Part shown: positions 8,820 through 57,000 of the stretch, in pieces | Layout of the letters: every line of letters begins with the position of its first letter | Position numbering within the stretch: the first letter of the stretch is position 1 | NCBI RefSeq assembly: GCF_000737325.1 | Contig: NZ_CP011125.1 | Span: 1,364,001-1,428,000, forward strand | Source of the DNA: Sandaracinus amylolyticus | GTDB taxonomy: Bacteria > Myxococcota_A > Polyangia > Polyangiales > Sandaracinaceae | Direction: 5' to 3' | Length of the DNA stretch: 64,000 bases | The notes under the pieces: model-generated | Database searches by the model: none | What the model was told of the DNA's origin: nothing | The model's input: only the letters and a program-made list of their open reading frames with translations | Position numbers and translations under genes: made by a program

Positions 8820-9952
8820 AGCGCGCGCTGCGCTGGACGCTCCGGGGCGCGGCGCTCGCCGTCGTGCTCGCGCTCGGCGGGTTCCTGCTCGCGCTCTCCG
8901 GGATCGTGCCGATCGGCGCGAGCGGAGGGCACTGGGCGATCACCGAGTGGATGCTGCAGTTCGGAAAGCGCCGCTCGATCGCGACCCACACGCTCTTCGC
9001 CGCTCCCGTCGAGCTCGGCGAGCCGTGGCTCGTGCTGAAAGGCGCCGGGCACTACGAGACCGGCTGTCGCCCCTGCCACGGCAGCCCCGATCTCCCGAGC
9101 CCGCGCATCGCGCGCGCGATGCTCCCGCGCCCGCCGTACCTGCCCGACGTGATCGCGGAGCGCGAGCCCGAGGAGCTCTTCTACGTCGTGAAGCACGGCC
9201 TCAAGTTCACCGGCATGCCCGCGTGGCCCGCGGCGCATCGCGACGACGAGGTGCGCGCGATGGTCGCGTTCCTGCTCGCGATGCCGGAGCTCGACGCCGC
9301 CGAGTACCTCGAGCTCGTCCACGGCGAAGCGACGCACGACACGACCGCGGCCGCGCTCCCCGATCTCGTCGAGTCCGCGCAGGTGCCCGACGTCGTCGCG
9401 CACAACTGCGCGCGCTGTCACGGGAACGACGGTCGCGGGCGCGGTCTTGCCGCGTTCCCCACGCTCGCGGGGCAGTCTCGCGAGTACCTCGAGCGCGCGC
9501 TCGACGCCTACGCGGAGGGCGATCGGCACAGCGGGATCATGCAGCCCGTCGCCGCCGATCTGACCCAGGCCGATCGTCACGCCGCGGCCGCGTACTACGC
9601 CGCGCTCGCTCCGGGCGCGCCGGTCGAGCACGCGGGGCCCGAGGAGCGCATCGCACGCGGCGCGGAGATCGCGCGCCGCGGCATCGCGGAGCGCGGAGCG
9701 CCTTCGTGCCGCGACTGCCACGGGCCCGCGGAGTGGGCGCGCAATCCCGCGTATCCGCGGCTCGCCGGTCAGTTCGCGGACTACCTCGCGCTCCAGCTCG
9801 AGCTCTTCCGATCGGGCCACCGCGGCGGATCGCGGTACTCGGAGCTCATGCACCACGTCGCGCCGCGGCTGACGCCCGAGGACATCCGCGACGTCGCGCT
9901 CTACTACGCCTCTCGCGACCCGTCGTCGGACGCGGCGCACGCGAGCGAGTGA
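8816..9952 (+). CDS. Tri-heme cytochrome c, membrane-anchored
   Basis: This 378-residue protein begins with a basic segment and one hydrophobic helix (about residues 10-32), probably an uncleaved anchor or signal. Three heme-binding motifs follow: CRPCH, CARCH and CRDCH. The last two lie in class I cytochrome c domains of the c4-like kind, each ending in a methionine-containing loop (GIMQPVAADLT and ELMHHVAPRLT). Each heme domain is about 100 residues. It is the last gene of the oxidase operon, overlapping the CtaG-like gene by 4 bp, and likely carries electrons from the quinol-oxidising complex to the oxidase. A nested hairpin right after the stop may end the transcript. Confidence 0.92.
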   Translation: MKRALRWTLRGAALAVVLALGGFLLALSGIVPIGASGGHWAITEWMLQFGKRRSIATHTLFAAPVELGEPWLVLKGAGHYETGCRPCHGSPDLPSPRIARAMLPRPPYLPDVIAEREPEELFYVVKHGLKFTGMPAWPAAHRDDEVRAMVAFLLAMPELDAAEYLELVHGEATHDTTAAALPDLVESAQVPDVVAHNCARCHGNDGRGRGLAAFPTLAGQSREYLERALDAYAEGDRHSGIMQPVAADLTQADRHAAAAYYAALAPGAPVEHAGPEERIARGAEIARRGIAERGAPSCRDCHGPAEWARNPAYPRLAGQFADYLALQLELFRSGHRGGSRYSELMHHVAPRLTPEDIRDVALYYASRDPSSDAAHASE

Positions 9953-9960
9953 GCCACGAC

Positions 9961-10012
9961 GCGCCCGAACGAGAGCAAGCGGGGCTGCGGCCCCGCGCGC
10001 AGCGTTCGGGGC
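9961..10012 (+). terminator. Nested hairpin after the oxidase operon
   Basis: An inner stem (gcgggg at 9979-9984 with ccccgc at 9991-9996) sits inside an outer stem (cccgaac at 9964-9970 with gttcggg at 10004-10010). It starts 9 bp after the cytochrome c stop codon. There is no T tract, so it is a candidate transcript end or 3-prime protecting structure, not a classical intrinsic terminator. Confidence 0.55.
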
Positions 10013-10030
10013 GGGTCGGTCGTCGAAGAG

Positions 10031-10515
10031 CCCCCACGCCCACGACCGCGTCGACGCCCACGATCACGTCGGCGATCTGCGCCGCGCGCGGCGTTGGGAA
10101 CGTGGTCGTGGTCGTGGTCGTGAGCGTGGTCGTGGTCGGCCTCTTCGCGGGGAACGGCCGCCCACGCCCACGACCACGTCGACGCCCACGATCACGTCGG
10201 CGATCTGCGCCGCGCGCGTCGTTGCGAACGTGGACGTGAGCGTGGTCGTGGTCGGCCTCTTCGCGGGGAACGGCCGCCCACGACCACGACCACGCCGACG
10301 CCCACGATCACGTCGGCGATCTGCGCCGCGCGCGTCGTTGCGAACGTGGACGTGGTCGTGGTCGTGAGCGTGGTCGTGGTCGTGAGCGTGGTCGTGGTCG
10401 GCCTCTTCGCGGGGAACGGCCGCCCACGCCCACGACCACGTCGACGCCCACGATCACGTCGGCGATCTGCGCCGCGCGCGGCGTTGGGGAACGTGGTCGT
10501 GGTCGGCTCTTCGGT
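10031..10515. repeat. Four-copy tandem repeat with internal inverted arms
   Basis: A marker gatcacgtcggcgatctgc occurs at 10062, 10190, 10306 and 10452, so the unit length varies (128, 116 and 146 bp). Each unit has a conserved half of about 60 bp and a variable half made of GTGGTC/GTGAGC steps that differ in number. The arms cgtggtcgtgg (for example 10125-10135) and ccacgaccacg (10168-10178) are complementary, and a ggcc...ggcc core lies between them, so each unit can form a hairpin. It fills the space between the convergent 3-prime ends at 9952 and 10546. Variable step number suggests slipped-strand instability. I see no credible gene in it. Confidence 0.85.
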
Positions 10516-10545
10516 CCGAACGGTCGACCACGACCTCCCGCGAGC

Positions 10546-10998
10546 TCAATGCGTCACGAACGTGCGGATCGGGATCGAGAGCCCGTCTCCCGGCGACGCG
10601 GTGATCTCCACACGACCCGCGTGCGGGCCCGGCTCCGCGCCCTGCAGCTCGAGCGCGACGAGGCGCTCCTCGCCGGGCAGCACGCGCTCCAGGCGCACCG
10701 AGAACGGCGAGCCCGGGCTCGGCTCGGGGATCATCGCGACCTGCTCGAACGACTGCGCGAGGTCGTCCGACAGCGCGATCTCCACGTCGCACGGCACGTC
10801 CGACGTGTTGCGCACCTCGATGTCGACCGGCGCGGCGTCGTCACCGCCGAGGTGCTCCGCCAGGTGGATGCGCGCTTCGATCGAGGGGCTGCGATAGACC
10901 GCGTCCGAGAGCGAGTGTCCGTGCAAGAGCTCCGCGAAGCCGAGCAGCGAGGCCATCACCACGAGCGGCGTACGCGCGCGCTCGACCAACCACTGCAT
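10546..10998 (-). CDS. Hypothetical protein with N-terminal helix and Ig-like domain
   Basis: This predicted 150-residue protein has a hydrophobic segment near the N-terminus (TPLVVMASLLGFAELLHG, about residues 10-27) and then an all-beta region. PVDIEVRNTSDVPCDVEIAL and LPGEERLVALELQG read like an immunoglobulin or DUF11-type fold in which alternating hydrophobics build strands. I recognise no catalytic motif. The start is uncertain: the ATG at 10998 is used, but a GTG at 11010 lies behind a weak GGTGGAAG. The long open frame further upstream is low-complexity and not protein-like. It is convergent with the oxidase operon and separated from it by the repeat block. Confidence 0.6.
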   Translation of the reverse strand: MQWLVERARTPLVVMASLLGFAELLHGHSLSDAVYRSPSIEARIHLAEHLGGDDAAPVDIEVRNTSDVPCDVEIALSDDLAQSFEQVAMIPEPSPGSPFSVRLERVLPGEERLVALELQGAEPGPHAGRVEITASPGDGLSIPIRTFVTH

Positions 10999-11299
10999 CA
11001 CGTCTCGCACGCTCGTCGCTTCCACCGCGCCACCCCTGAGGCCGCTCGAGCCAGCCTCGCTGCTGCCGCCCGGGGCGCTCGTCGCAAGCTCCACGCCATC
11101 GAGCCACGCGGCGCGCGCGCACCACGCGTGTCGTGTGGACGTGGCCACGCCCCTCCGCGAGCCCCACACGATCTGGGGCAACCTCGGACCGAGCGCGTGC
11201 GCGCACGTGACAGAGGTCCACGCGACGCGCTGCTCGGATCCCGGCGCCGTGGAGCTCCGATGCGCTGGTACCCGGGTTGCCTGGGGACGGCGCTCGGAC
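10999..11299. other. Intergenic region between divergent genes
   Basis: About 300 bp separate the Ig-like gene from the trehalohydrolase gene. Promoters for both are expected here. Open frames cross it on both strands but are arginine-, serine- and alanine-rich without family features. I found no clear palindrome, repeat or riboswitch-like element. Confidence 0.4.
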
Positions 11300-44887: not shown

Positions 44888-45559
44888 ATGCTCGACAACC
44901 CGACCTGGTCCGCGCTCACGACGGAGCAGTCGCACCTCGCGCTGCGGCACGAGGATGCGGCGCGCTTTCCACCCGCGGTGACGACGCTCGCCGGCGCGCG
45001 CGACGAAGCCGCGCTCGATGCGCTCGCACGAGCGCTCTCACCCGGCGAGATCGTCGGCGTGTTCGCGGCCGGGTCGCTCGTGCGCCCGAGGCTGCTGGTC
45101 GAGATCGACGGTGCGCCGCTCGTGCAGATGGTGCACGAGCTGCCCGCGCCGGAGCCCGCCTCCGACGTCGAGATCCTGGGCGCGTCCGACGTGCCCGCGA
45201 TGCTCGCGCTGGCCGAGCGGACGCGTCCCGGCCCGTTCGGTCCGCGCACCGTCGAGCTCGGCACGTTCCTCGGCGTTCGTGACGTCGGCGGGCGGCTCGT
45301 CGCCATGGCCGGCCAGCGGCTGCGCCTGCCGGGCACGATCGAGATCAGCGCGGTCTGCACCGATCCCGCGCACGCGGGGCGCGGCCTCGCTGCGCGGCTG
45401 ATCACCGAGCAGCTCGCGCGCATCCACGGCGCGGGCGCGTCGGCGTTCCTCCACGTCCGCGCCGACAACGCGCGCGCGATCGCGCTCTACGAGCGCCTCG
45501 GGTTCCGCACGCGCCGTCGCTTCCGATATCTCGTGCTGCGCCGCGCCGATCAGGCGTAG
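44888..45559 (+). CDS. GNAT-family N-acetyltransferase
   Basis: This 223-residue protein has a GNAT core in residues 110-215: LGTFLGVRDVGGRLVAMAGQRL, then the acetyl-CoA site TDPAHAGRGLAARLITEQL and the terminal RADNARAIALYERLGFRTRR. The first 100 residues form a second, degenerate GNAT-like half, as in FR47-like proteins. It acetylates an amine; substrate unknown. The ATG at 44888 is used. Its 3-prime end overlaps the convergent glycoside hydrolase gene by 10 bp. Confidence 0.9.
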   Translation: MLDNPTWSALTTEQSHLALRHEDAARFPPAVTTLAGARDEAALDALARALSPGEIVGVFAAGSLVRPRLLVEIDGAPLVQMVHELPAPEPASDVEILGASDVPAMLALAERTRPGPFGPRTVELGTFLGVRDVGGRLVAMAGQRLRLPGTIEISAVCTDPAHAGRGLAARLITEQLARIHGAGASAFLHVRADNARAIALYERLGFRTRRRFRYLVLRRADQA

Positions 45560-46434
45560 CGCCGCACCATGCGCGCGCAGAAGTCCGCGAACTCCGCGGG
45601 ATCCTTCGGCGGGCTGGTGTGATCGTCGCGCTGTCCGCGCGAGCCCGGCGTGAAGCAGAACGTGATGGTCGTCTCGAAACCTTCGAGCGCCTTCATCTGC
45701 TTGTCGAACCACTGCTCCCAATTCGGACGGTGGGAGTCCGCCCACGAGAGACCGGTGCGCAGGTGCTTGACGCCGAGCTCTCTCAGCCACTTCACCGCGG
45801 GCTCGAGCCGGTGATCCTCGAAGTGGAACCACTGGCAGATCCCGAGGTCCGGCGTGAGCGTGTGGAAGTGCTTCAGCGCGCGCTTCGGAGTGCCGTCCTC
45901 GCGCAAGAGGCCCATGTAGAAGTGGCGGTAATAGCTCGACCCTTCCGCCTCGCGATGGCGCGTCGTCGCGGGCCACGCGCGCGGCAGATCGTAGAGCGAG
46001 TACCAGTGGATCCGCTCCACCTTCCCGCGCAGCAGCTCGGCAGTGCGCACGAGCCCGAACTCCTGCACTTCCTCGGCACCGAACGTCGAGACTCCGACCT
46101 CGCTGACCCAGAGGCGCTTGTCCGTGACCGCGCGGATCTCGGCGAGCTTGTCGGGCCACTCGTGGATCTGCCAGTGGTTCCAGTCGAGCGGAAACCCGTG
46201 CACGGCGATGACGTCGACCGCGTCGACGACTCCCTCGCTCGCCATCGTCCGGATGAAGTTCGGATCGATCGGAGAGATGCCGCCCAGCACCTTGGGCAGC
46301 GAGGGGCGCTCGGCGCGGATCGCGCTCGCGGCCATCCTCGTCATCATCGCGAATTGCTTCCAGCCCGGATCCATCTGGAAGTCCCAGTGAGAGAGGTTGT
46401 TGGGCTCGTTCCAGATCATCACCGCTTCGATCAC
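45550..46434 (-). CDS. Glycoside hydrolase (GH39-like), circularly permuted barrel candidate
   Basis: This 294-residue protein carries GH clan-A motifs but in an unusual order. It begins directly at the strand with the acid/base glutamate (MIWNEPNN, E10), continues through strands 5-7 with the nucleophile E112 (LWVSEVGVST), and only after strand 8 (HWYSLYD) and its helix shows sequences that normally form strands 1-3 (ICQWFHFED; LGVKHLRTGLSWAD; ETTITFCFTPG), ending with DPAEFADFCARMVRRYA, the segment that usually precedes WNEP. The order is thus beta4-8 then beta1-3. The GTG at 46434 overlaps the methyltransferase stop; no in-frame extension looks like a missing N-terminus. Confidence 0.85.
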   Translation of the reverse strand: MIEAVMIWNEPNNLSHWDFQMDPGWKQFAMMTRMAASAIRAERPSLPKVLGGISPIDPNFIRTMASEGVVDAVDVIAVHGFPLDWNHWQIHEWPDKLAEIRAVTDKRLWVSEVGVSTFGAEEVQEFGLVRTAELLRGKVERIHWYSLYDLPRAWPATTRHREAEGSSYYRHFYMGLLREDGTPKRALKHFHTLTPDLGICQWFHFEDHRLEPAVKWLRELGVKHLRTGLSWADSHRPNWEQWFDKQMKALEGFETTITFCFTPGSRGQRDDHTSPPKDPAEFADFCARMVRRYA

Positions 46435-47270
46435 GCGGCACCTCCCTGCGAACCGTCCTCGCTCGTGTGCTCCGGGACCCGCACGCTGCGATGCACCACC
46501 CACTCGCCCGACTCGCGCGCTCGCCGCCCCTTGCGGCACACGTACACCTCGGGCTCGGGGTGACCGACGATCGTGAACCCGGTGCTGCGCAGCATCGCCT
46601 CCACGCACGCACGGTTCGGGATCCACCAGTTCGTCGGATCCTGCGAGTACTTCCGCTCGACGAAGTGCATCTTCGGATATCCGGGATCGTCGAAGATCTC
46701 GCGCTCGACGAACGGATAGTCCTCCTCGAGATCCTTCACCTGATCACTGCCGCGCTGCAGGCTCTGGAAGAGCAGCAGATCGCCGACGACGTGCTCGTGC
46801 AACAGATCGAGCGCGAGCAGCGGGTGGCGCAGGTGATAGAGCACGCCCATGAAGATCACGAGATCGAATCGCTCTCCGATCGCGCCGACCTCGTAGACGC
46901 TGCGCTTCTGGAACTCGACGTCGAGCCCCGTCAGATCGGCAGCGAGCCGTGCCTGCGCGAGATATCGATCGTCGCTGTCGATCCCGACCACGCGCGACGC
47001 CCCACGGCGCTTCATCTCGAAGCTGTAGAACCCCGCGTTGCACCCGACGTCGAGCACGCTGCGGCCCGTGAGATCGTCGGGAATCGCGTGGGCGAACCCC
47101 GCGAATTTCACCCGCGGATAGTCACCCAGGAAGTGCTCCGGCGCGGTCATCACGCCGGCGAGCTCCATGTTGTGGAACCACGGGCCGAGCTCGCGGATGC
47201 GCCGCTCTGCCTCCGCGCGCGACACCTCGCTCTGGGCGCGTCGCGCCGTCCGTTCGGTCTGCATCGACAT
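46431..47270 (-). CDS. SAM-dependent methyltransferase of the glycan cluster
   Basis: This 279-residue class I methyltransferase has an N-terminal region (RIRELGPWFHNMELAGVMTAPEHF) that resembles the TIGR04290/Rta_06860-type family as I recall it. The SAM site is GRSVLDVGCNAGFYSFEM with the acidic residue in VVGIDSDD, followed by FDLVIFMGVLYHL. The C-terminal part (WWIPNRACVEAML) is family-like. It probably methylates a sugar or glycan intermediate in the cytoplasm. It lies between a CgeB-like glycosyltransferase and the permuted glycoside hydrolase, overlapping the latter by 4 bp. The start at 47270 has an alternative two codons later. Confidence 0.9.
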   Translation of the reverse strand: MSMQTERTARRAQSEVSRAEAERRIRELGPWFHNMELAGVMTAPEHFLGDYPRVKFAGFAHAIPDDLTGRSVLDVGCNAGFYSFEMKRRGASRVVGIDSDDRYLAQARLAADLTGLDVEFQKRSVYEVGAIGERFDLVIFMGVLYHLRHPLLALDLLHEHVVGDLLLFQSLQRGSDQVKDLEEDYPFVEREIFDDPGYPKMHFVERKYSQDPTNWWIPNRACVEAMLRSTGFTIVGHPEPEVYVCRKGRRARESGEWVVHRSVRVPEHTSEDGSQGGAA

Positions 47271-47295
47271 CGTCGGCCCCTCTCGTCGTGGAAGA

Positions 47296-48399
47296 TCAGG
47301 CGGTCGCGGACGTGGTGCGCGCGCGCGCGTCGAGGATCTCGCGCGTGAGGCGCTCGACCGTCTCGGCGCGGTGCGCGGCGGTGTGCTCCGCGAGCACGCG
47401 GTCGCGCGCTCGCTCGCCGATGCGGCGGCGCTGCTCCTCGCCCATCCCCTGCAGGATCGCGAGCGACTCCTCGGTGCTGCGTGCGACGAGGATCTCCTCG
47501 CCGGGCACGAAGAAGGTCTCGAGCCCCGGCCACTCGTCGCTGACGATCGGCACCGCGCACGCCGCGGCCTCGAAGAGGCGCACGCTCGGCGAAAAACCCG
47601 CCTCGATCATGTCGCGACGCGTGACGTTCAGCGTGAAGCGCTGCGCGTTGTAGTAGGCGCGATGCTCGCGCGGCGCGAGGTGGATCTCGCGGCCGACGTT
47701 CGCCGGCCAGCGGATCGCATCCGGGTACTGCGGCCCAGCGACGTGGAAGCGTCCTTGTCGCCAGCGGCGCGCGGGCTCGAGCAGCAGGCGCTCCAGCGTC
47801 GGCTGTCGATCGTCGCTGTAGGTGCCGAGATATCCCATGTCCCAGCGGACTCCGGCATCGGGATCGGGCGCGTACAGACCGGGATCCACCGAGCAGTGGA
47901 GCGCCTCCGCGCGCTTGGCGCCCCAGCGCTTCTCGAGCACGCGCAGCGTCGGCCCGCCGGTGAACGAGAGATAGAGATCGAATTCCGGGATGAGCGACGG
48001 AGTCAGATACTCCTCTTCGCCGCGTGCCAGTCGCGCCAGCGTCACCGGCGTATCGATGTCGTAGAACGCGACCGCGCCGCGCGCGGTGCGGGTCGCCCAG
48101 CGGCCGACCTCGATCCCCTCCGGGACGTACGAGCCCACGACGACCAGATCGGCGTCGCGCACTTCGCGCGCATACGCCGAGCGCAGCTCCTCGAGCGAGC
48201 GATAGAGGCGCGTCGTGCAGTAGGGCGGCTCGGGCATGTCCCGGTTCGCCGCGTAGAAGTCGAGATCACGCTCGAGGAAGAGCACGCGGTGACCGCGCGC
48301 CGCGAGCTCGCGCACCAGCCCGCGATAGGTCGTCGCATGCCCGTTGCCCCACGAGCTCGTGATCGAGAGGCCGAGGAACACGTAGTCGAACGCGCTCAC
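47296..48399 (-). CDS. CgeB-like glycosyltransferase
   Basis: This 367-residue protein is a GT-B fold glycosyltransferase of the CgeB group. It contains FLGLSITSSWGNGHATTYRG, FYDIDTPVTLARL, GYLGTYSDDRQPTL and a C-terminal donor-site region around RLFEAAACAVPIVSDEW. It is a paralogue of the gene at 24015-25130 (same motifs in the same order), which ties the two glycan clusters together. The GTG at 48399 overlaps the stop of the next CgeB-like gene upstream (GTGA). The substrate is not evident. Confidence 0.88.
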   Translation of the reverse strand: MSAFDYVFLGLSITSSWGNGHATTYRGLVRELAARGHRVLFLERDLDFYAANRDMPEPPYCTTRLYRSLEELRSAYAREVRDADLVVVGSYVPEGIEVGRWATRTARGAVAFYDIDTPVTLARLARGEEEYLTPSLIPEFDLYLSFTGGPTLRVLEKRWGAKRAEALHCSVDPGLYAPDPDAGVRWDMGYLGTYSDDRQPTLERLLLEPARRWRQGRFHVAGPQYPDAIRWPANVGREIHLAPREHRAYYNAQRFTLNVTRRDMIEAGFSPSVRLFEAAACAVPIVSDEWPGLETFFVPGEEILVARSTEESLAILQGMGEEQRRRIGERARDRVLAEHTAAHRAETVERLTREILDARARTTSATA

Positions 48400-49529
48400 G
48401 TCGCTGCTCCCAAGCTCACCGGGGCTGCGATTCCGCGCTCGGTCGCGAGGCCCTGCACGAGCGCGCGCTCGACCTGCTCGGCGCGCTGCGCGTACGTGTG
48501 GTGCGCGATCACGCGCCTGCGCGCGGCCTCGCCGATCGCGCGCGCACGCGCTTCGTCGAGGCGGCGGACGTGCTCCGCGACCTCGTCTCCGTCCTTCGCG
48601 ACCAGCACCTCGCGCTCCGGCTCGAGGAAGAGCTCGATGCCCTCCCACGCGTCGGTGATCAGGCACGCGGCCGCGCCCGCCGCTTCGAACACGCGCGTCG
48701 CCGGCGAGAACCCGACGTTCGCCATGCTGTCGCGCGCGACGTTGAGCACCGCGAGGCACGACGCGTTGAACGCGTTGTGATCCGCGGTGTAGACGTGGCC
48801 GACCTTGATCACGTTCGGCGTCACGTGCTTGTCGCCCCAGCCATTGCCGCCGAGGACGAACCGGCGCTCGGGGGACGTCGACGCAGGGCGCAGGAAGAAC
48901 TCCTCGATGCGGCGCTCGCGATCGGGCAGTCGATTCGCGAGCAGGCCGAGATCACCGCGGAAGCGCGCGTCCGGCGTGCCGGGGAAGTGCGTGTCGGGAT
49001 CGAGCGCGTTGTAGATCGGCAGACAAGCGCGCGCGCCGAGCGCGAGATACCGGCGCACGACGGGATCGCCGCCGCCGTAGGTGAACACCGCGTCGTAGCG
49101 CGGCAGCGCGCTGCGGAACGGATCGCGGGTGTCGCCCTCGATGCGATCCAGCGTCGCCGCCGCGTCGACGTCCCAGAAGATCGCGAGCTGTCCCGGGCGC
49201 CGCACCTCCGGGACGCCGGCCTCGAGCAGCGCGTCGTACACGCCGACGCCGCTCGCCTTCACGATGACGTCCGCGTGCTGCGCCGCGATCGTCAGCTGTC
49301 GCAGCGCGTCGCGCTCGTCGTCGCCGCGATAGACCACCACGCGGCACCACGGCGGATCGTCGATGTCGCGATGCTTCTGGCGATCGTAGGCGTCGGGCTC
49401 GTAGAACGTGACGCGGTGTCCGCGGGCCGCGAGCGCGCGCACGATGCCGCGGTAGTAGGTCGCCGCGCCGTTCCAGTACGCGGAGACGATGCTCGATCCG
49501 AAGAAGGCGATGTCGAGAGAGGCAGTCAT
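48396..49529 (-). CDS. CgeB-like glycosyltransferase
   Basis: This 377-residue protein belongs to the CgeB group but is more distant from its neighbour: FFGSSIVSAYWNGAATYYRG at the N-terminus (WNGAAT in place of WGNGHAT), FWDVDAAATLDRI where others have DTPVTL, GLLANRLPDRERRIEE in place of YLGTY, and TRVFEAAGAAACLITDAWEG in the donor-site region. The divergence in the donor-site and acceptor segments suggests a different sugar. The ATG at 49529 overlaps the upstream stop by 4 bp, part of a chain of overlapping glycosyltransferases. Confidence 0.85.
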   Translation of the reverse strand: MTASLDIAFFGSSIVSAYWNGAATYYRGIVRALAARGHRVTFYEPDAYDRQKHRDIDDPPWCRVVVYRGDDERDALRQLTIAAQHADVIVKASGVGVYDALLEAGVPEVRRPGQLAIFWDVDAAATLDRIEGDTRDPFRSALPRYDAVFTYGGGDPVVRRYLALGARACLPIYNALDPDTHFPGTPDARFRGDLGLLANRLPDRERRIEEFFLRPASTSPERRFVLGGNGWGDKHVTPNVIKVGHVYTADHNAFNASCLAVLNVARDSMANVGFSPATRVFEAAGAAACLITDAWEGIELFLEPEREVLVAKDGDEVAEHVRRLDEARARAIGEAARRRVIAHHTYAQRAEQVERALVQGLATERGIAAPVSLGAAT

Positions 49530-50647
49530 ACCGGCTGGGTCTCCAAGGGCGCCCGCTGCTCGCGCCGGATGCGATCGACGATGGCGAGGAGCTCGTCCGC
49601 GCGATGCGCGCAGGTGTGTCGGGACAGGACTCGCTCGCGGCCCGCGCGCGCGAGCGACGCCGCGAGCGCCGAGTCGGAGAGGATCCGCTGCAGGTGCGCG
49701 GACATCTCCGCGCCGTTCTGCGCGAAGAGGAAGTCCTGGCCGCGCCGGAAGAGACCCTCGGTGTCGCGCCACGGCGCGCTCACGAGCGGAATGCCGCACG
49801 CCATCGCCTCGAACGGGCGGATCGTCGGAATCCCCCTCAGCCGCTCGGCATAGGGGCGACGCGGCACGTGCACCGTGACCCGCGCCTTCGCGAACGCCTC
49901 GGGCACGCGGTAGTTCGGGAGCCACCCGCCGTACTCCACGCCTGCGTCGTGCAGCGCGGCGAGCGCGCGCTCGGGATAACGCACTCCGTGCACACGGGCG
50001 CGCAGTCCGAGGCGCTTCACCGGGCCCAGCAGGAACTCGTGCAGCTCTTCTTCGCGCTCGTCGTCGCCCCAGTTTCCGATCCACACGAGATCGAGCTCTT
50101 TTTCGATCTCGGGGCGCGGCACGAACACCCGCGCATCCGCGGCCTCGTGGAAGACGAACGCGCGCTTGGCCCACTTGTGCTGCAGATACAGATCACGAAT
50201 CACCGCGCCGAACGCGAGCACGGCGTCGTAGTGCTGCAGATCGTATCGCGCCATCGACTCCACCTCGGTCACCGAGCGATGGTGGGTGTCGTGGAAGAGC
50301 AGCGTGTATCCGAATCGCGCCTTCGCCTCGCCGAGCCGTCGCACCAGCTCGTGATCGCTCCACTCGTGGACGATGACGACGTCGGCATTCCCGACCGCGG
50401 CGTCGAGATCGAGCCCCCGCAGATCGTATCGAGTGCAGTCGAGCGCGGGATAGACCTCTCCGACCGCAGCGAGCGGCGCTTCGCCGTGATCGCGGACGAG
50501 GTTCTCGAGGCTCCACGCGTCGTGTGGCTCCCAGACCTTCACGTCGTGTCCGCGCGACGCGAGCTCGGTCACGAGGCCGCGCAGGAAGTGCGCATTGCCG
50601 TGGTTCCAGTCGGACAGGAGTGAGTGACAGAAGAGCGCTATGCGCAT
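49526..50647 (-). CDS. CgeB/GT4-like glycosyltransferase
   Basis: This 373-residue glycosyltransferase has FCHSLLSDWNHGNAHFLRGL at the start (again the glycine-rich N-terminal loop of this group), LDLVWIGNWGDDEREEEL around the linker, and a C-terminal donor site IRPFEAMACGIPLVSAPW. The order of features matches the other two CgeB-like proteins, though sequence drift is large. It overlaps the upstream gene's 3-prime end by 10 bp and the downstream gene by 4 bp. It should transfer one sugar in the glycan made by this operon; donor and acceptor are unknown. Confidence 0.85.
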   Translation of the reverse strand: MRIALFCHSLLSDWNHGNAHFLRGLVTELASRGHDVKVWEPHDAWSLENLVRDHGEAPLAAVGEVYPALDCTRYDLRGLDLDAAVGNADVVIVHEWSDHELVRRLGEAKARFGYTLLFHDTHHRSVTEVESMARYDLQHYDAVLAFGAVIRDLYLQHKWAKRAFVFHEAADARVFVPRPEIEKELDLVWIGNWGDDEREEELHEFLLGPVKRLGLRARVHGVRYPERALAALHDAGVEYGGWLPNYRVPEAFAKARVTVHVPRRPYAERLRGIPTIRPFEAMACGIPLVSAPWRDTEGLFRRGQDFLFAQNGAEMSAHLQRILSDSALAASLARAGRERVLSRHTCAHRADELLAIVDRIRREQRAPLETQPV

Positions 50648-51759
50648 GAGGCAGCCCTTCGAGCGCGCCGGGTGAGCAGCGCGGAGTAGAGGTCGAGGTA
50701 CGAGTCGGCCATCACGTCGGGCCGGGCGAGCTCCAGCGCGCGACGGCGCGCGCGGAGAGCGAGATCCGCGCGCACCGTCGGCGCGTCGATCAGGCCCTCG
50801 ATCGCGATGCGGAGCGCGACGGGATCGTCGGGATCGACGTATCGCGCGGCATCGCCCCAGATCTCGCGCAGCGAGGGCACGTCGCCGAGGACCAGCGCGC
50901 ACCCCGAGAGCGCCGCCTCGAGCGCCGAGAGCCCGAACGGCTCGTATCGCGCGGGCAAGGCGTAGATCGCGGCGCGCGACATCCACGACGCGATCTCGTC
51001 GGGTGTCAGCACCCCGAGCGACGTCGCGCCGCGGAACGTCACGCGCTCTCCGTCCGGCCCGACGTCGCTCCCCGCGATCACCACGTCCCACGGGAGATCG
51101 CCCGCGATCGCATCGAGCGACGCGACGTTCTTCGCCTCGTCCCACAAGCGTCCTGCTGCGAGCACGAGCGGCTCCTTCGCGTCCGCGGGCGCGTAGCGCG
51201 TCGGATCGATCGCGTTGGCGATCACGCGCGCGCGCCGCTGATGCGCGCGCGCGGGATCGTGCTCCGCGAGGAACGCGTCGAGCATCGCGCGCGTGGGCGC
51301 CGCGATCGCGTCCGCGCCGGCGAGGCCGTCGCGCACTGCCGCGCGGTATCGATCCCAGTCGCTCGGTGCAGCCTCGCGCTTGCACGCGCGCCACCACGTG
51401 CAGACACAGGAGTGCGCGACCATCAACACCGGCGCTTCGAAGCGAAGCGCGCAGTGGGAGAATCCATTGACGTGCACCACGTCGGGCGCGACCACGCGCT
51501 CGAGCGCCAGCAGCCACTGGCCCGCGGACTCGACGTCGGCCCACGGATCTGGCGCCCACTCCAGAGCGAACGCGCCCTCGTGGAGATCGACGATGCTCTC
51601 CGCAGCTGCGCGCTGCGCGTTCGTCGGCGGCGGGCCCATCACCGCGAGCGTGGTGCGCACGGCGCGGGCGGAGAGCGCACGAGCGAGGTCGAGCGCGTAC
51701 GTCCACACGCCGCCGACCGCGTCGGCCGTCATCAGGACGCGCTCCGGGCGTGTGTTCAT
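50638..51759 (-). CDS. GT4-type glycosyltransferase
   Basis: This 373-residue enzyme is a classical GT4: MTADAVGGVWTYALDLARAL at the N-terminus contains the glycine-rich loop, VLAAGRLWDEAKNVASLDAI starts the donor domain and ALPARYEPFGLSALEAALSGCALVLGD is the EX7E donor site with the two glutamates. It differs from the three CgeB-like enzymes in fold details and is likely to use a common donor such as UDP- or GDP-sugar. The ATG at 51759 overlaps the radical SAM stop by 4 bp. It is the fourth glycosyltransferase of the operon. Confidence 0.92.
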   Translation of the reverse strand: MNTRPERVLMTADAVGGVWTYALDLARALSARAVRTTLAVMGPPPTNAQRAAAESIVDLHEGAFALEWAPDPWADVESAGQWLLALERVVAPDVVHVNGFSHCALRFEAPVLMVAHSCVCTWWRACKREAAPSDWDRYRAAVRDGLAGADAIAAPTRAMLDAFLAEHDPARAHQRRARVIANAIDPTRYAPADAKEPLVLAAGRLWDEAKNVASLDAIAGDLPWDVVIAGSDVGPDGERVTFRGATSLGVLTPDEIASWMSRAAIYALPARYEPFGLSALEAALSGCALVLGDVPSLREIWGDAARYVDPDDPVALRIAIEGLIDAPTVRADLALRARRRALELARPDVMADSYLDLYSALLTRRARRAASCA

Positions 51760-53057
51760 GCGCCCTCGAGCTCCGGCCGCTCGAGCTCGCCGATCCGGCG
51801 CGGCTGCGCGTCCTGGATCTCGCTCATCCGGCCGAACTCGTTCAGGTAGTGATCGACCGCGCGCTCCCACGCTTCGTCGTCGGGCGCGCCCCAGCGAATG
51901 CCGTACTCGGGCGAACCGGGATACGGAAAGAGCGGCACCGGATCGTTCGCCCAGACTCCGTGGCTGCGAAGGTGATCGCGCCAACGGCGCACGTCGTCCG
52001 CATGATCGGCGCGCGAGTCGAGCAGATTGGCCTGCACGAACGCGACGCTCTTCTTCGCGTGCACGAGCAGCGCGCTCAGCTCGTCGGTGCTGAGCTTGCA
52101 CTTCTTCTGCAGCAGCGAGCGCCCCTCGGGCGTGATGCTCTCGATACCGGCCTCGATCGACACGCACCCCGCCATCCCGAGCAGGTCGAGCTGCGGCTCG
52201 CTCCAGTTGTCGACCCGGAGCTGCACGCCGAACGCGACGTCGCGCTCCGCGATCCCGCGCAGCAGCGCTTCGTCGGGCAGGAAGATCTCGTCGACGAAAT
52301 AGACGTACTCGACGCCGCGCTCGATCATGGCGTCGAGCTCCGCGAGCACCACGTCGAGCGGGCGCTTGCGATATTTGTCGCGGTAATTCTCCTTCGCGCA
52401 GAACGTGCACTTGTACGGGCACCCGCGCGACGCCTCGAGCTCGCCGCCGGGCTTCTCGGGCTCGCGGTCGAAGCGGTGATGATGGTGCGCGTGTCGCGCG
52501 AGGAGCGCGGGATCCCACGTGAGCGCGGGGAGCGACTTCATGTCGCTCGCGTGTGGCGCGCCCTGCACGACGACGTCGCCCGACACGCGATGGGCGATCG
52601 ACGCAATCGAGCCCCATTGCGCGCGATCCTTCTCGACCAGCTCGGGCACGATCTCCTCGCACTCGCCGAGGATCACCGCGTCCACGCCGAGCTTGCGCAG
52701 CGCCGCGCGAGGCGTCGTCGAGCAGTGCGGACCGGCGGCGAGCATCCGTCCGCCGACCTCGCGCAGCGCGCGCACGGTGCGCATCGGGATCGCGAGCTCG
52801 GGCGGCGCGCAGCGCCAGAACAAATAGCTCGGCGCGGTCACGACGAGCGTCGCGTCCGGCGCGAACGCGGCGACGCGCTCCTTCATCGCGTCGAGCGTGA
52901 GCCCCTCGAGCTGTCCGTCGACCAGCAGAGCCTGGTGCCCGCGGGCCTCGAGGACCGCTCGCGTGTACCCCAGCTCGAGCGGCAGGTGCGGTGATCGGCA
53001 CCCGAAATAGATGCTGCCTTCGAAGCTCCAGGGCGGATTGACGAGCGCGACTTTCAT
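51756..53057 (-). CDS. B12-binding-domain radical SAM protein
   Basis: This 433-residue protein has an N-terminal cobalamin-binding-like Rossmann domain (residues 1-140; KVALVNPPWSF, DAVILGECEEIVPEL) and a radical SAM domain with the 4Fe-4S cluster cysteines C213, C217 and C220 (CPYKCTFC). The classical DxHxxG cobalamin ligand is not visible, so cobalamin may bind base-off or not at all. In glycan and natural product clusters such enzymes methylate or rearrange unactivated carbons. A hairpin in the 108-bp gap upstream may modulate expression. It overlaps the GT4 gene by 4 bp. Confidence 0.9.
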   Translation of the reverse strand: MKVALVNPPWSFEGSIYFGCRSPHLPLELGYTRAVLEARGHQALLVDGQLEGLTLDAMKERVAAFAPDATLVVTAPSYLFWRCAPPELAIPMRTVRALREVGGRMLAAGPHCSTTPRAALRKLGVDAVILGECEEIVPELVEKDRAQWGSIASIAHRVSGDVVVQGAPHASDMKSLPALTWDPALLARHAHHHHRFDREPEKPGGELEASRGCPYKCTFCAKENYRDKYRKRPLDVVLAELDAMIERGVEYVYFVDEIFLPDEALLRGIAERDVAFGVQLRVDNWSEPQLDLLGMAGCVSIEAGIESITPEGRSLLQKKCKLSTDELSALLVHAKKSVAFVQANLLDSRADHADDVRRWRDHLRSHGVWANDPVPLFPYPGSPEYGIRWGAPDDEAWERAVDHYLNEFGRMSEIQDAQPRRIGELERPELEGA

Positions 53058-53098
53058 TCGACGCCTCGGGCGTGGATGTCGGACGAGAGAGACTCGAA

Positions 53099-53130
53099 GA
53101 CAGGCACCTTCGCAATCGAAGATGCCTGTC
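53099..53130. promoter_or_regulatory. Intra-operon hairpin before the radical SAM gene
   Basis: Arms gacaggcaccttcg (53099-53112) and cgaagatgcctgtc (53117-53130) pair with one mismatch around the loop caat. It lies in the only sizeable gap (108 bp) of the second glycan operon, between the epimerase stop (53166) and the radical SAM start (53057). It could be an RNA processing site, attenuator or mRNA-stabilising element. Confidence 0.6.
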
Positions 53131-53165
53131 TCGGGAGGAACCTCGAGAAGAACGACGCCGGATCG

Positions 53166-54326
53166 CTACTCTGCGACTCCGTCGATCGCGGGGTGGACCG
53201 CCGCCTGACGGCGCGAGGGATCGCGCAGCCACGCGAACAGCCGCTCGACGCCCTGTCGGACGTCGGTCCGCGGGCGCCACCCGATCGCACCCGCGAGCTT
53301 GCGCGGATCGCTGACGTACCAGCGCTGATCGCCGATGCGGACGGGGGCGTGCTTCACGTCGGGGCGCTTGCCGCCGAGCTCGCGCACCAGCTCGAGCAGC
53401 TCGACCAGGCTGATGGTGTTCTCGGGCCCGCCGCCCACGTTGAACGCTTGTCCGCGCACCAGCTCCAGCTGATCGAGCGCGCCGAGCATCGCATTCACGA
53501 GATCGTCGACGAACAGGACGTCACGCACCTGCATGCCGTCGCCGTAGAGGACGATCGGCTCGCCGCGCAGCGCGCGGATCAGGAAGTGGGCGACCCAGCC
53601 CTGATCTTCGGTGCCGAACTGCCGCGGCCCGTAGATGCAGCTCATCCGGAACACGACGCTCGGCAGTCCGTAGCTGCGCGACCAGTCGAGCACCATCTGG
53701 TCCGCGGCGCCCTTGCTGCAGCCATACGGAGAGTGGAAGTCGAGCGCGCGCGCCTCGCCGATGCCGGTCGAGGAGAGCGCGGTGTCGACCGGCATCCAGC
53801 GACTGCCACGCAGCTCGAGCGGCACGTCGGAGAGCGAGCCGTAGACCTTGTTCGTCGACGTGAAGAGGACCGGAATCTCCTTGCCCCGCGCGCGCACTGC
53901 CTCGAGCACGTTCAGCGTGCCGCGCGCGTTCACGTCGAAGTCCGCGATCGGATCGAGGAGGCTCGTCGTGACCGCGACCTGCGCCGCGAAGTGGAACACA
54001 CGATCGGCGCGCGCGATCACGCGGCGTACGGCGCTCGCGTCCCGCACGTCGCCGACGACCAGCGACACCCGCCGTCCGTGCTGCTCGCGCAGCCACTGCG
54101 CGTTGAGCTGCACGTTGCCGCGCGCGAGGTTGTCGAAGAGCACCACCTCGCCGCCCGCGCCCGCGATCGCGTTCGCGAGGTTCGCACCGATGAACCCGGC
54201 GCCTCCGGTGATCACCGTCACGCCCTCGGGCACCGGCACCGCCGACCGCGCGACACGCACGCTCGATCGCGATGCGTGCCCGTTGCCGTGCGACTTCCCG
54301 TTCCCGTTTCCGTTCTTCGCGGTCAC
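53166..54326 (-). CDS. NAD-dependent epimerase/dehydratase (extended SDR)
   Basis: This 386-residue protein begins with an asparagine/glycine-rich, probably disordered N-terminal 40 residues (KNGNGNGKSHGNGH), then the NAD-binding core VTVITGGAGFIGANLANA, with the catalytic threonine/serine in LFTSTNKVYG and YxxxK in FHSPYGCSKGAADQ. It resembles CDP-paratose 2-epimerase and UDP-glucose 4-epimerase-type enzymes, which change sugar stereochemistry of an NDP-sugar. It overlaps the other epimerase by 4 bp (GTGA), so the two are co-translated. The exact sugar is unknown. Confidence 0.9.
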   Translation of the reverse strand: MTAKNGNGNGKSHGNGHASRSSVRVARSAVPVPEGVTVITGGAGFIGANLANAIAGAGGEVVLFDNLARGNVQLNAQWLREQHGRRVSLVVGDVRDASAVRRVIARADRVFHFAAQVAVTTSLLDPIADFDVNARGTLNVLEAVRARGKEIPVLFTSTNKVYGSLSDVPLELRGSRWMPVDTALSSTGIGEARALDFHSPYGCSKGAADQMVLDWSRSYGLPSVVFRMSCIYGPRQFGTEDQGWVAHFLIRALRGEPIVLYGDGMQVRDVLFVDDLVNAMLGALDQLELVRGQAFNVGGGPENTISLVELLELVRELGGKRPDVKHAPVRIGDQRWYVSDPRKLAGAIGWRPRTDVRQGVERLFAWLRDPSRRQAAVHPAIDGVAE

Positions 54327-55438
54327 AGCGTCAGCCCCCGCGCCGAGAGCTCCGCCTTCGCCTCGAGGACCGCGTCCTTCGCGCTCTTTCCCTCGAGCCA
54401 TCCCGCGAGCTCGCGCAGCCCCGCTTCGAGGCTCACGCGCGGCTCGTATCCGAGCGTCTTGCGCGCGAGCGCGATGTCCGCGACGCAGTGGCGGATGTCG
54501 CCCTTGCGGTACTGACCGGTGATCTCGGGGTCGACGCGTTTGCCCACCGCGTCGGCGACGCGCGCCGCGATCTCCGACACGGTGTACGCGTTGCCCGAGC
54601 CGACGTTGATCGCGGAGTCCACCGCCTGCTCGCGCTCCATCGCGAGCACACACGCCTGTGCGACGTCGTGCACGCTGACGAAGTCGCGGCGCTGCTTTCC
54701 ATCTTCGAAGATCATCGGCGCCTTGTCGTTCAAGAGGCGCGACGAGAAGATCGCGAGCACGCCCGTGTACGGATTCGAGAGCGCCTGTCGCGGCCCATAG
54801 ACGTTGAAGAAGCGGAGCGCGACCGTCGGAATGCCGTAGGCCCTCCCGATGATCAGGCTCATTCGCTCCTGGTCGTACTTCGAGAGGGCGTAGACCGACT
54901 CGAGCGCAGGAATCTTGTCCTCGTGGGTCGCCACCGGGACGAGGACGTTCCCGCGCGCGTCGCGGAGCTCCCAGTCCCGCCGCTCGAGCTGCGCGAGGGA
55001 GCGCGACTGGCCGGGCACGATCGATCCGTCGACACGCTCGTAGAGACCCTCGCCGTAGATGCTCATGCTCGACGCGACGATCACGCGCCGAGGAGGTCGC
55101 TGCGCGAGCACCTCCATCAGGACCGAAGTCCCGACGTTGTTCACCGAGGTGTAGTCCTCGATTCGATACATGCTCTGGCCGACGCCGACCAGCGCCGCGA
55201 AGTGATAGACGACGTCGATTCCGCGACAGGCCTTCTCGACCGCGGCGCGATCGCGGACGTCACCGATGATCAGCTCGACGTCGCGCGAGAGATACTCCGG
55301 CCGCTTCTGGGAAGGTCCGTGGACCTGCGGGTGGAGGCAGTCGAGCACACGGACGCGGTGACCTTTCGCGAGGAGCGCGTCGGCGACGTGGGATCCGATG
55401 AATCCCGCGCCACCGGTGATGAGGACGTTCTCTCCCAT
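54323..55438 (-). CDS. NAD-dependent epimerase/dehydratase (extended SDR)
   Basis: This 371-residue protein has NVLITGGAGFIGSHVADAL, followed by a serine in IVASSMSIYGEGL, the YxxxK catalytic pair (VYALSKYDQERM) and an FFNVYGPRQA substrate-site segment. The family interconverts NDP-sugars. An insertion after the catalytic serine (LERRDWELRDARGN) is also present in WbpP-like/dTDP-glucose-related enzymes of similar type. It is the first gene of the second glycan operon; a 248-bp gap upstream should contain the promoter. ATG 55438 is chosen, with a GTG at 55447 possible. Confidence 0.9.
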   Translation of the reverse strand: MGENVLITGGAGFIGSHVADALLAKGHRVRVLDCLHPQVHGPSQKRPEYLSRDVELIIGDVRDRAAVEKACRGIDVVYHFAALVGVGQSMYRIEDYTSVNNVGTSVLMEVLAQRPPRRVIVASSMSIYGEGLYERVDGSIVPGQSRSLAQLERRDWELRDARGNVLVPVATHEDKIPALESVYALSKYDQERMSLIIGRAYGIPTVALRFFNVYGPRQALSNPYTGVLAIFSSRLLNDKAPMIFEDGKQRRDFVSVHDVAQACVLAMEREQAVDSAINVGSGNAYTVSEIAARVADAVGKRVDPEITGQYRKGDIRHCVADIALARKTLGYEPRVSLEAGLRELAGWLEGKSAKDAVLEAKAELSARGLTL

Positions 55439-55686
55439 CGCGAACACCGCCGTAGGGTGAGGGAGCCAGAGTGGCTCGTTGAGATGCGCCGGGTCGCGGA
55501 CTGCTGCGCTCCGGAAGGTCCAGTGTTGTTTGCGACAGTGATGCCACTCCGTGGGTGCGCGATGCGACAGCGATCGTTCTACTTAGCCGGTTCTCGACAT
55601 CCGCTCTCGCCGCCTGCTCGCCACGCGTGTGACATTTCGCCTCCACAACGCGCGCCCGTTTCGGGCGCACCGCGCCACGTGCGGAG

Positions 55687-57000
55687 TCAGTCGTAGTACT
55701 CGTGACCGAGGTGCGAGATCACCTCTTCACCGCGGAGCCAGCGAAGCGTGTTCTTCAGCTTCTTCAGCTGGATGAAGAGGTCGTGCTCGGGCTTCAGGCC
55801 CGGCGCAGCCATCGGGCTCTTGAAGTAGAAGCCGAGCCACTCCTGGATTCCGGAGAGCCCAGCGCGCTGCGCGAGATCGAGGAACAGCGCGAGATCGAGC
55901 ACCAGCGGCGCGGCGAGGATCGAGTCACGACACAGGAAATCGACCTTCATCTGCATCGGATATCCGAGCCATCCGAACAGATCGATGTTGTCCCAGCCTT
56001 CTTTCGCGTCGCCTCGCGGCGGGTAGTACTCGATTCGGACCTTGTGATAGAGGTCGCCGTAGAGCGCTTTGTGACGCTCGGGCTCCAGCACGCCCTCGAG
56101 CACGCCGAGCTTCGTCGCTTCCTTGCAGCGGAACGAGTCGGGATCGTCGAGCACCTCGCCGTCGCGATTGCCGAGGATGTTCGTCGAGAACCAGCCGCGG
56201 ATGCCGAGCATGCGCGCCTTCAGCCCGGGCGCGACGATCGTCTTCATCAGCGTCTGCCCGGTCTTGAAGTCCTTGCCCGCGATCGGCACACCGCACTCTC
56301 GCGCGAGCGCGACCGCCGCAGGAAAATCGACCATCGCGTTGGGCGCGCCGTTCGCGATCGGCACGCGCTCTTTGATCAGCGCCCACGCGTAGAGCTGCGA
56401 CGCGGGGATCGCCGCGTCGTCCTCGAGCAGCGCGCGCTCGAATCCGTCGATCGTCTGATGAGCGCCGTTGATCGTCGGCAGGACCTCGGTCGATCCACAC
56501 CAGATCGCGACACACCGCGAGACGCCGGTGCGAGCGCGGAATTCGCGCACGTCCTGGCGGATCTGCTCGACGAGCTCCGCCTTGTGACGCGCCTTCTTCA
56601 CGTGCGTTCCCTGCAGGCGCTTCACGTGGCGCGGGTCGAACGCGCCCGGCATCGGCACGACGCGCGCGAGCTCGTCCTTGACGGCGTCGAGGTGCTCGCG
56701 CGAGAGCACGGCCGCGTGCTCGGCGGTCTCGAGCGCGTTCTCCGGGAAGATGTCCCAGCCACCGAACTCGAGATCGCCGAGCTGCGCGAGCGGCAGGAAT
56801 TCCTGCAGCGTCGGCACCCGATGATCGGTGCGTTTCCCGAGCCGGATCGTCCCCATCTGCGTGAGCGATCCGATCGGCGCTGCGAGCCCGCGCCGCGCGA
56901 GCATCGTGCCCGCGACGAAGGTGGTCGCGACCGCGCCCATGCCGGGCAGCAGCACTCCGAGCTTGCCCTCTGCGTTCGGGATCGAGTCGGGTTTCTTCAT
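55687..57000 (-). CDS. Myo-inositol-1-phosphate synthase-like protein
   Basis: This 437-residue protein resembles inositol-3-phosphate synthases: LGVLLPGMGAVATTFVAGTMLAR is the NAD-binding site, and the conserved segments AIWCGSTE, VPIAGKDFKTGQTLMKTI and FSTNILGNRDG (catalytic lysine region) follow. It would convert glucose-6-phosphate to inositol phosphate. The C-terminal region ends in a tyrosine/aspartate motif (GHEYYD). Product inositol could feed phospholipids or a glycoconjugate. Its start overlaps the stop of the lycopene-cyclase-domain gene by 4 bp, so the two are translationally coupled. Confidence 0.9.
   Translation of the reverse strand: MKKPDSIPNAEGKLGVLLPGMGAVATTFVAGTMLARRGLAAPIGSLTQMGTIRLGKRTDHRVPTLQEFLPLAQLGDLEFGGWDIFPENALETAEHAAVLSREHLDAVKDELARVVPMPGAFDPRHVKRLQGTHVKKARHKAELVEQIRQDVREFRARTGVSRCVAIWCGSTEVLPTINGAHQTIDGFERALLEDDAAIPASQLYAWALIKERVPIANGAPNAMVDFPAAVALARECGVPIAGKDFKTGQTLMKTIVAPGLKARMLGIRGWFSTNILGNRDGEVLDDPDSFRCKEATKLGVLEGVLEPERHKALYGDLYHKVRIEYYPPRGDAKEGWDNIDLFGWLGYPMQMKVDFLCRDSILAAPLVLDLALFLDLAQRAGLSGIQEWLGFYFKSPMAAPGLKPEHDLFIQLKKLKNTLRWLRGEEVISHLGHEYYD

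Follow-up and report, generated by a model that had tools for sequence, protein, structure and literature searches.

A circularly permuted, PslG-related glycosidase-type barrel closes a predicted oligosaccharide operon in Sandaracinus amylolyticus

We analysed a stretch of 64,000 nucleotides from Sandaracinus amylolyticus (NZ_CP011125.1, positions 1,364,001 to 1,428,000 of the forward strand), here called the window, and describe a gene for a permuted glycosidase, GHp, on its minus strand at positions 45550..46434. The gene begins with GTG and encodes 294 amino acids, as supported by its open reading frame, an AlphaFold2 model, a rotation scan and a match to PslG (PDB 5bx9 and 4zn2), which we take to be the endo-beta-glucosidase of glycoside hydrolase (GH) family 39 from the Psl exopolysaccharide operon. 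Two blocks make up the chain. Residues 1–194 (45853..46434, minus strand) carry strands 4–8 with the putative acid/base E10 (in WNEPN) and nucleophile E112 (in WVSEVG), based on the model, the invariant residues and the PslG alignment, and residues 195–294 (45553..45852, minus strand) carry strands 1–3 and helix 3, which normally come first, based on the model, BLASTP against an unpermuted sister protein and profile searches. A sequence-only reading of this DNA had the chain beginning at the acid/base motif with the nucleophile motif next, and both lie where it located them; it also assigned the last 90 residues (205–294) to strands 1–3, which holds for the identity of the block but not for its extent, as the block spans about residues 195–294 and includes helix 3. 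The permutation itself is well established, and we consider it very probable that GHp arose naturally by circular permutation of a (beta/alpha)8 glycosidase of clan GH-A type related to PslG/GH39; it is probably a cytosolic, retaining enzyme that processes the oligosaccharide of its operon.

GHp is the last gene of a minus-strand run, positions 45550–57000, that begins with myo-inositol-1-phosphate synthase (55687..57000; Pfam PF07994, 6.1e-92, and PF01658, 8.5e-30). This gene is followed on the same strand by two NAD-dependent epimerases/dehydratases assigned with Pfam, EPI2 (54323..55447) and EPI1 (53166..54326, start uncertain), the latter having relatives in other genomes that carry an unpermuted barrel as their N-terminal domain, and then by a B12-binding radical SAM protein of the TIGR04295 family (51756..53057; NCBIfam, 687 bits at a cut-off of 400). 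Four glycosyltransferases, also assigned with Pfam, come next on the minus strand: glycosyltransferase d (Glyco_trans_1_4 / Glycos_transf_1; 50638..51759, likely start ATG 51759), and c (49526..50647, likely start ATG 50647), b (48396..49529, likely start ATG 49529) and a (47296..48399, likely start GTG 48399), all three matching Glyco_trans_1_2. The methyltransferase directly before GHp (46431..47270, minus strand) belongs to the TIGR04290 family (NCBIfam, 390.8 bits at a cut-off of 300), and its TGA stop overlaps by 4 nucleotides with the GTG of GHp at 46434, which has GGGAGG just 5' of it. At its 3' end, GHp overlaps by 10 bases with a plus-strand GNAT acetyltransferase, and a plus-strand thioesterase and a minus-strand HxlR regulator also lie on that side. 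The predicted product of the operon is an oligosaccharide built from nucleotide sugars and methylated, with inositol supplied. The same operon, comprising the TIGR04290 methyltransferase, the TIGR04295 radical SAM protein, four glycosyltransferases and two epimerases, is conserved in many phyla and on plasmids, although its make-up varies, with inositol-1-phosphate synthase or a UDP (uridine diphosphate)-glucuronate decarboxylase often added. A search of the open-licence PubMed Central (PMC) literature found no paper naming either TIGR family.

The order of the two blocks was apparent in comparisons with unpermuted relatives. Searched with phmmer as a single sequence in its native order, GHp matched PslG at E=0.018 in two swapped pieces, one of them not significant alone, whereas with its blocks swapped it matched in one stretch across the junction of the old C- and N-termini (E=3.6e-8). 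Similarly, a native-order profile of 81 members reached 5e-7 against PslG only jointly from two swapped pieces (query 197–293 on chain 21–128, 0.8; query 2–167 on chain 131–304, 0.01), and a rotated profile of 12 members, drawn from 20 usable rotated rows after exclusion of two mis-cut rows from 22, reached 1.7e-12 in a single stretch (query 7–285 on chain 25–319). We also compared GHp with a profile of eight of the 14 order-normal, epimerase-fused sister proteins described below (G009, L069, L010, L009, L037 and L100 were left out). The best single match rose from 128.6 bits in native order to 209.9 bits (profile positions 10–293) at the best cut; a scan of all 294 rotations placed the optimum at cuts 184–197, whose scores differ from the maximum by no more than 3 bits, and among 200 shuffled controls the top score was 4.4 bits. 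Rotation gained at least 69 bits in each of the 81 GHp sequences. BLASTP against the sister from genome G150 returned two swapped pieces of 193 and 101 residues, at 36% and 43% identity, respectively. Once rotated at one point, GHp thus matches an unpermuted relative continuously over its full length, as a circular permutant does.

The AlphaFold2 model of GHp, built on an alignment of 81 members, has eight strands with a predicted local distance difference test score (pLDDT) of 91 and a predicted template modelling score (pTM) of 0.90. Strands 4–8 lie at residues 2–7, 48–53, 75–80, 107–113 and 141–145, followed by strands 1–3 at 197–200, 224–230 and 254–260 and by helix 3 at 279–293. The barrel appears complete, because the model aligns end to end with triosephosphate isomerase (TIM) barrels (best Z 13.3, over 219 residues at 4.1 Å, to a designed barrel), and GHp is thus modelled as the (beta/alpha)8 barrel typical of clan GH-A. 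Its strand order along the chain, 4–8 then 1–3, departs from the order 1 to 8 of GH39. The rotation gain and the eight modelled strands bear out the proposal of the sequence-only reading that the chain is permuted and not truncated, and speak against an incomplete barrel and against an unrelated C-terminal domain, since the C-terminal block and strands 1–3 of the sister are homologous. The expected GH39 match across the junction was found with PslG, in one continuous stretch after rotation, but not with the Pfam GH39 model, which matched weakly and missed the window protein.

Sequential fold searches with this good model gave no glycosidase that stands out. One search placed a radical SAM enzyme on top (root-mean-square deviation 13.3) and returned a mix of GH99, GH5, GH10, GH26, GH53 and other barrels, with a single GH39-like chain (8uwt, aligned over 146 columns); a second search returned many unrelated barrels at Z of about 12–13, with PslG absent among the 50 matches listed. 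The missing glycosidase lead is what would be expected of a permutant, yet it is not proof of one. With a model of the order-normal sister, poor as it is (pLDDT 65, from a five-sequence alignment), Foldseek ranked PslG first in normal order (E=9.2e-9), and VIA-align also ranked it first (Z 18.6, 3.4 Å over 235 residues), with GH1 enzymes within one Z unit.

Clan GH-A is the 4/7 superfamily, in which strand 4 ends with an Asn-Glu acid/base and strand 7 with a Glu nucleophile, and its members use retaining double-displacement chemistry. In the GHp model, N9-E10 directly follow the strand at residues 2–7, which corresponds to strand 4, and E112 stands at the end of the strand at 107–113, which corresponds to strand 7. 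Both glutamates are invariant in all 81 GHp sequences, as are many aromatic and His residues. By manual count in the rotated-profile alignment, E10 and E112 align with PslG glutamates 111 residues apart, the spacing of Glu165 and Glu276, which the available excerpts of PMC11912335 describe as acid/base and nucleophile, respectively. The catalytic pair is thus placed as in clan GH-A, and the roles of the two residues would follow from the PslG alignment.

Family models place GHp less sharply. An NCBIfam scan of the window protein matched no model. The commonest Pfam families in native and rotated scans were Glyco_hydro_cc and Glyco_hydro_53, both below cut-off for the window protein. Glyco_hydro_39 (PF01229) matched weakly in two of the 12 rotated sequences (best 0.0032) and one of the 81 native ones (0.073), the window GHp being unmatched, and the rotated profile matched beta-xylosidase chains weakly (0.028–0.59). 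The link of GHp to GH39 therefore runs through its similarity to PslG. The filtered lists from the native and rotated scans contained no GH13 or GH70 family, a result that leaves room for a remote link. A doubled copy of GHp scored 28.3 bits against Pfam GH53, above cut-off, and was discarded as support, as it sums two copies and hardly reaches strands 1–3.

In the window genome (10.3 Mb, one contig), the GHp family has a single match. A wider contig scan yielded 505 loci with relatives, of which we kept the 80 best-scoring, ranked by their match to the native-order query. All 80 homologues retrieved under this ranking, which favours permuted relatives, have the permuted order, at 69–77% identity to the window GHp. 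In 62 of them, GHp is preceded on its own strand, at a distance of −100 to 400 bases, by a gene for a methyltransferase like that of the window; conservation of the permuted order in the same operon context was one of the checks proposed by the sequence-only reading. Labelled sources include Myxococcota, Acidobacteria, Deltaproteobacteria/Desulfarculales, Nitrospirae, Opitutus/Verrucomicrobia, Planctomycetota, Armatimonadetes, Chloroflexi, Gemmatimonadales, Dyadobacter and other Proteobacteria, and plasmid records add copies from Sinorhizobium, Ensifer, Roseomonas, Azospirillum and Paracoccus. Public names for the family are ‘beta-xylosidase’, ‘glycosyl hydrolase’ and ‘hypothetical protein’ (for example Azospirillum WP_237906641.1), and no mention of permutation was seen in the database records listed. 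The new joint is fixed in length, with exactly 13 residues between K184 and G198 in 81/81 sequences. At the new C-terminus, longer tails occur, reaching at least 5 residues past Y293 in 14/81 and at least 11 in 11/81, up to 55 (for example L036:130-1173). On Sinorhizobium meliloti pSymB (L095, 10001–10963), GHp has as neighbours the genes for a polysaccharide pyruvyl transferase and for a coenzyme F420 hydrogenase-like protein. The DNA immediately upstream resembles inositol synthase and phosphatase genes, and a methyltransferase match at 45% identity or above was not found.

We searched 282 genomes of the phylum of the window with a swapped profile and obtained matches in 28 of them at 1e-5, a lower bound, because up to eight candidates per genome were scored. 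The split pattern of the permuted gene appeared in two, the genome of the window and G009, whereas a contiguous match in normal order was strong in G150 (E=1.3e-65) and weaker in G009 (2.4e-22); the remaining matches were weak and PslG-like. The G150 barrel forms the N-terminal part of a protein of 693 residues that continues as EPI1 and is encoded in a cluster with EPI2, four glycosyltransferases and a methyltransferase like that of the window. A search of this genome found no permuted gene, and none of the other genomes of its class yielded a further strong sister (one of 57 at 1e-15, G150 itself). The same barrel-epimerase fusion occurs on plasmids of Rhizobium etli (p42b), Tistrella, Geminicoccaceae, Agrobacterium, Paracoccus and Xanthomonas; on the Xanthomonas sacchari plasmid (L100, at the start of the gene at 9189–11087), the barrel is apparently frameshifted, with its N-terminal part in another frame. 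Sister and GHp occur together in L067, L069, L019, L010 and L009, in L037, where the sister is a weak, relic-like match, and in G009, where they lie on different contigs. An insert of about 1 kb holding the barrel sits between EPI2 and EPI1 in three (L019, L067 and L069) of the 22 loci that show EPI1 and the 1000 bases before it.

The catalytic pair is intact in nine of the 14 sisters, and at least one glutamate is changed in the other five (G009, L019, L010, L009 and L037, the last so diverged that its alignment is unsure). All five come from genomes or loci that also hold GHp, as do two near-identical Dyadobacter loci in which both pairs are intact; at least one glutamate is thus changed in five of seven genomes or loci with both forms, compared to none of seven in which only the normal form was seen, the latter being G150, searched as a whole genome, and six plasmids, for which the plasmid collection alone was searched. 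The sisters without one or both catalytic glutamates lie at L009:5-715, L010:3-788, L019:3030-3968, L093 (G009) and L037:1-813. Given this loss, the barrel in these proteins looks like a pseudoenzyme domain kept on a sugar epimerase.

GHp should be cytosolic, because its N-terminus is strand 4 and it has no signal-like segment; no hydrophobic N-terminal stretch is present, and the highest 19-residue hydropathy, 1.2, falls at residue 60. It would be a retaining beta-glycosidase of the cytosol, with its translation coupled to that of the methyltransferase, and would trim, release or transglycosylate the oligosaccharide built by the glycosyltransferases of the operon. As the PslG gene lies among those for the Psl glycosyltransferases, we infer by analogy that GHp may trim, release or transfer pieces of this glycan, and its substrate and role are put forward in that sense. 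UDP-glucuronate decarboxylases make UDP-xylose, and genes resembling them were found in eight of the 80 loci and in L092, L096 and L098–L102. In G150 (L092:17015-18070), the methyltransferase is followed by such a gene, 48% identical to that of R. etli, a hint of a xylose-type sugar. A xylose-containing substrate of GHp is only a lead.

Could GHp instead be a broken or split gene, with an N-terminal half that a sequencing error has removed or that is encoded upstream in a different frame, and with last 100 residues that are a remnant or another gene? A longer open frame of 358 amino acids does lie upstream in the window, and long upstream frames accompany many homologues too, but the ends of the gene are conserved, so GHp is no gene-calling artefact and we regard this explanation as practically negligible. 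ATG, GTG or TTG stands at the start position of the window gene in 74 of the 80 homologues and one codon earlier in five, giving 79 with the same or the adjacent start; a purine-rich 4-mer resembling a ribosome site, by a loose pattern, was seen in 70; the methyltransferase gene usually lies just upstream; and an in-frame stop lies within five codons before the start in 11, which disposes of the hidden upstream half considered by the sequence-only reading. Extensions of tblastn alignments upstream of the start at about 14 loci raised a candidate relic of strands 1–3, which was rejected: the in-frame alignments at the six loci examined were low-complexity noise, two with an internal stop. A barrel that is intact and yet non-catalytic, serving as a pseudoenzyme or sugar-binding scaffold in a biosynthetic complex, has more in its favour, since the lost glutamates of the epimerase-fused sister indicate that such a role may exist in the pathway. 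However, the two glutamates never vary in the 81 GHp sequences, nor do many of their aromatic and His residues, and we consider a non-catalytic GHp improbable.

We built a tree from 44 of 82 permuted GHp sequences with their blocks swapped, 12 of the 14 sisters (L037 and L100 left out) and seven PslG-like outgroup rows. GHp formed one clade (99/96) and the sisters another (99/95), with the outgroup separate (100/100), and this one clade for each form fits a single permutation event. An order-normal barrel would have been duplicated and fused, and a new start and a new stop, most simply acquired once, would have produced the permuted chain; the old N- and C-termini would then be joined by the short linker of fixed length, and the new termini would fall in the loop that leads from helix 3 to strand 4. 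The same end product would result from fission and refusion, in which two half-barrel genes are joined in opposite order with no tandem duplication, and a profile scan of the loci searched, over open frames of at least 60 amino acids in all six frames, found no duplicated intermediate; yet separate half-barrel genes were not seen in these loci either, and we hold this route to be rather unlikely. An alignment at L072 running past a stop was considered as a duplicated intermediate and rejected as noise. As the two forms are sister clades, the tree alone would also allow the permuted order to be ancestral to the epimerase-fused clade, but PslG and the outgroup rows match in normal order, which makes that order the parsimonious ancestral state, and the reverse direction is very improbable. 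The pattern of catalytic pairs in sisters and GHp further suggests a takeover by the permuted copy: after duplication of the ancestral barrel, the copy coupled to the methyltransferase may have taken over catalysis, with the epimerase-fused normal copy decaying into a pseudoenzyme where both exist, a scenario that we put forward tentatively, as somewhat less probable than its opposite. If true, it would provide a natural clan GH-A permutation with an ancestor-type copy still present.

Several observations count against a permuted, catalytic GHp derived from a PslG-like barrel, or at least temper it. Pfam models barely gain when GHp is rotated (Glyco_hydro_cc from 17.5 to 19.8 bits, Glyco_hydro_53 from 15.2 to 16.7, all below cut-off), and the matched stretch hardly reaches strands 1–3. 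The sister from G150 matches PslG weakly in a phmmer search of the PDB (E=0.039). The uniformity of the 80 homologues is partly selected, because the ranking favours close, permuted relatives, and one of them, L015, has CTG in place of ATG, GTG or TTG at the shared start. Branches in the tree are long, including those of the outgroup and the sister from G009, so that the rooting between the sister groups is held with less confidence than one origin for the permuted sequences, and the missing duplicated intermediate adds to these points. To our knowledge, no measured activity, crystal structure or substrate is available for GHp. PslG has been linked to the membrane or periplasm, and its location may not carry over to GHp.

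Most studied circular permutants were made in the laboratory. GHp, by comparison, is a natural permutant, widespread and strongly conserved, whose unpermuted sister survives in the same type of operon and sometimes in the same genome, so that direct tests can address how the permutation of a TIM barrel arose, what it costs in folding and what advantage it brings. The gene also marks a conserved oligosaccharide operon (TIGR04290/TIGR04295), and it illustrates that profiles in normal order under-score permuted enzymes such as GHp.

Among known systems, PslG is homologous to GHp over nearly the whole barrel after rotation, with its catalytic glutamates at matching places, and, according to the available excerpts of PMC11912335, is likewise encoded in a glycan biosynthesis cluster; it differs in its normal strand order, its chain of about 415 residues, its operon and its action on Psl. 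The normal order of PslG-type relatives is the reason why we take this order as ancestral. The order-normal sister (about 660–690 amino acids, for example Rhizobium etli WP_011427519.1) occurs in related gene clusters, which encode similar glycosyltransferases and mostly the methyltransferase as well, but it has strands 1–8 in order, an epimerase fusion and a catalytic pair that is not always kept. We found no permuted GH39 or clan GH-A enzyme in the open-licence PMC literature, a scope that does not establish their absence in print. Judging from titles and abstracts, the glycosidase barrels in one set of papers listed on permutation belong to GH70. A well-known precedent for permuted glycosidase barrels is nevertheless GH70: in the available excerpts of PMC11046441 and PMC11299179, GH70 glucansucrases run from helix 3 through strands 4–8 to strands 1–3, and the latter source also mentions a permuted GH13 enzyme. 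The chain order of GH70, approximately strands 4–8 then 1–3, is thus cut at nearly the same place as in GHp, although GH70 enzymes belong to clan GH-H, act on alpha-glucans, are extracellular and multidomain, and begin with helix 3, with which GHp ends. By similarity, GHp itself falls on the side of GH39 and clan GH-A. The closeness of the two cuts in different clans suggests that the junction between strands 3 and 4 may be a favoured reopening site in glycosidase barrels.

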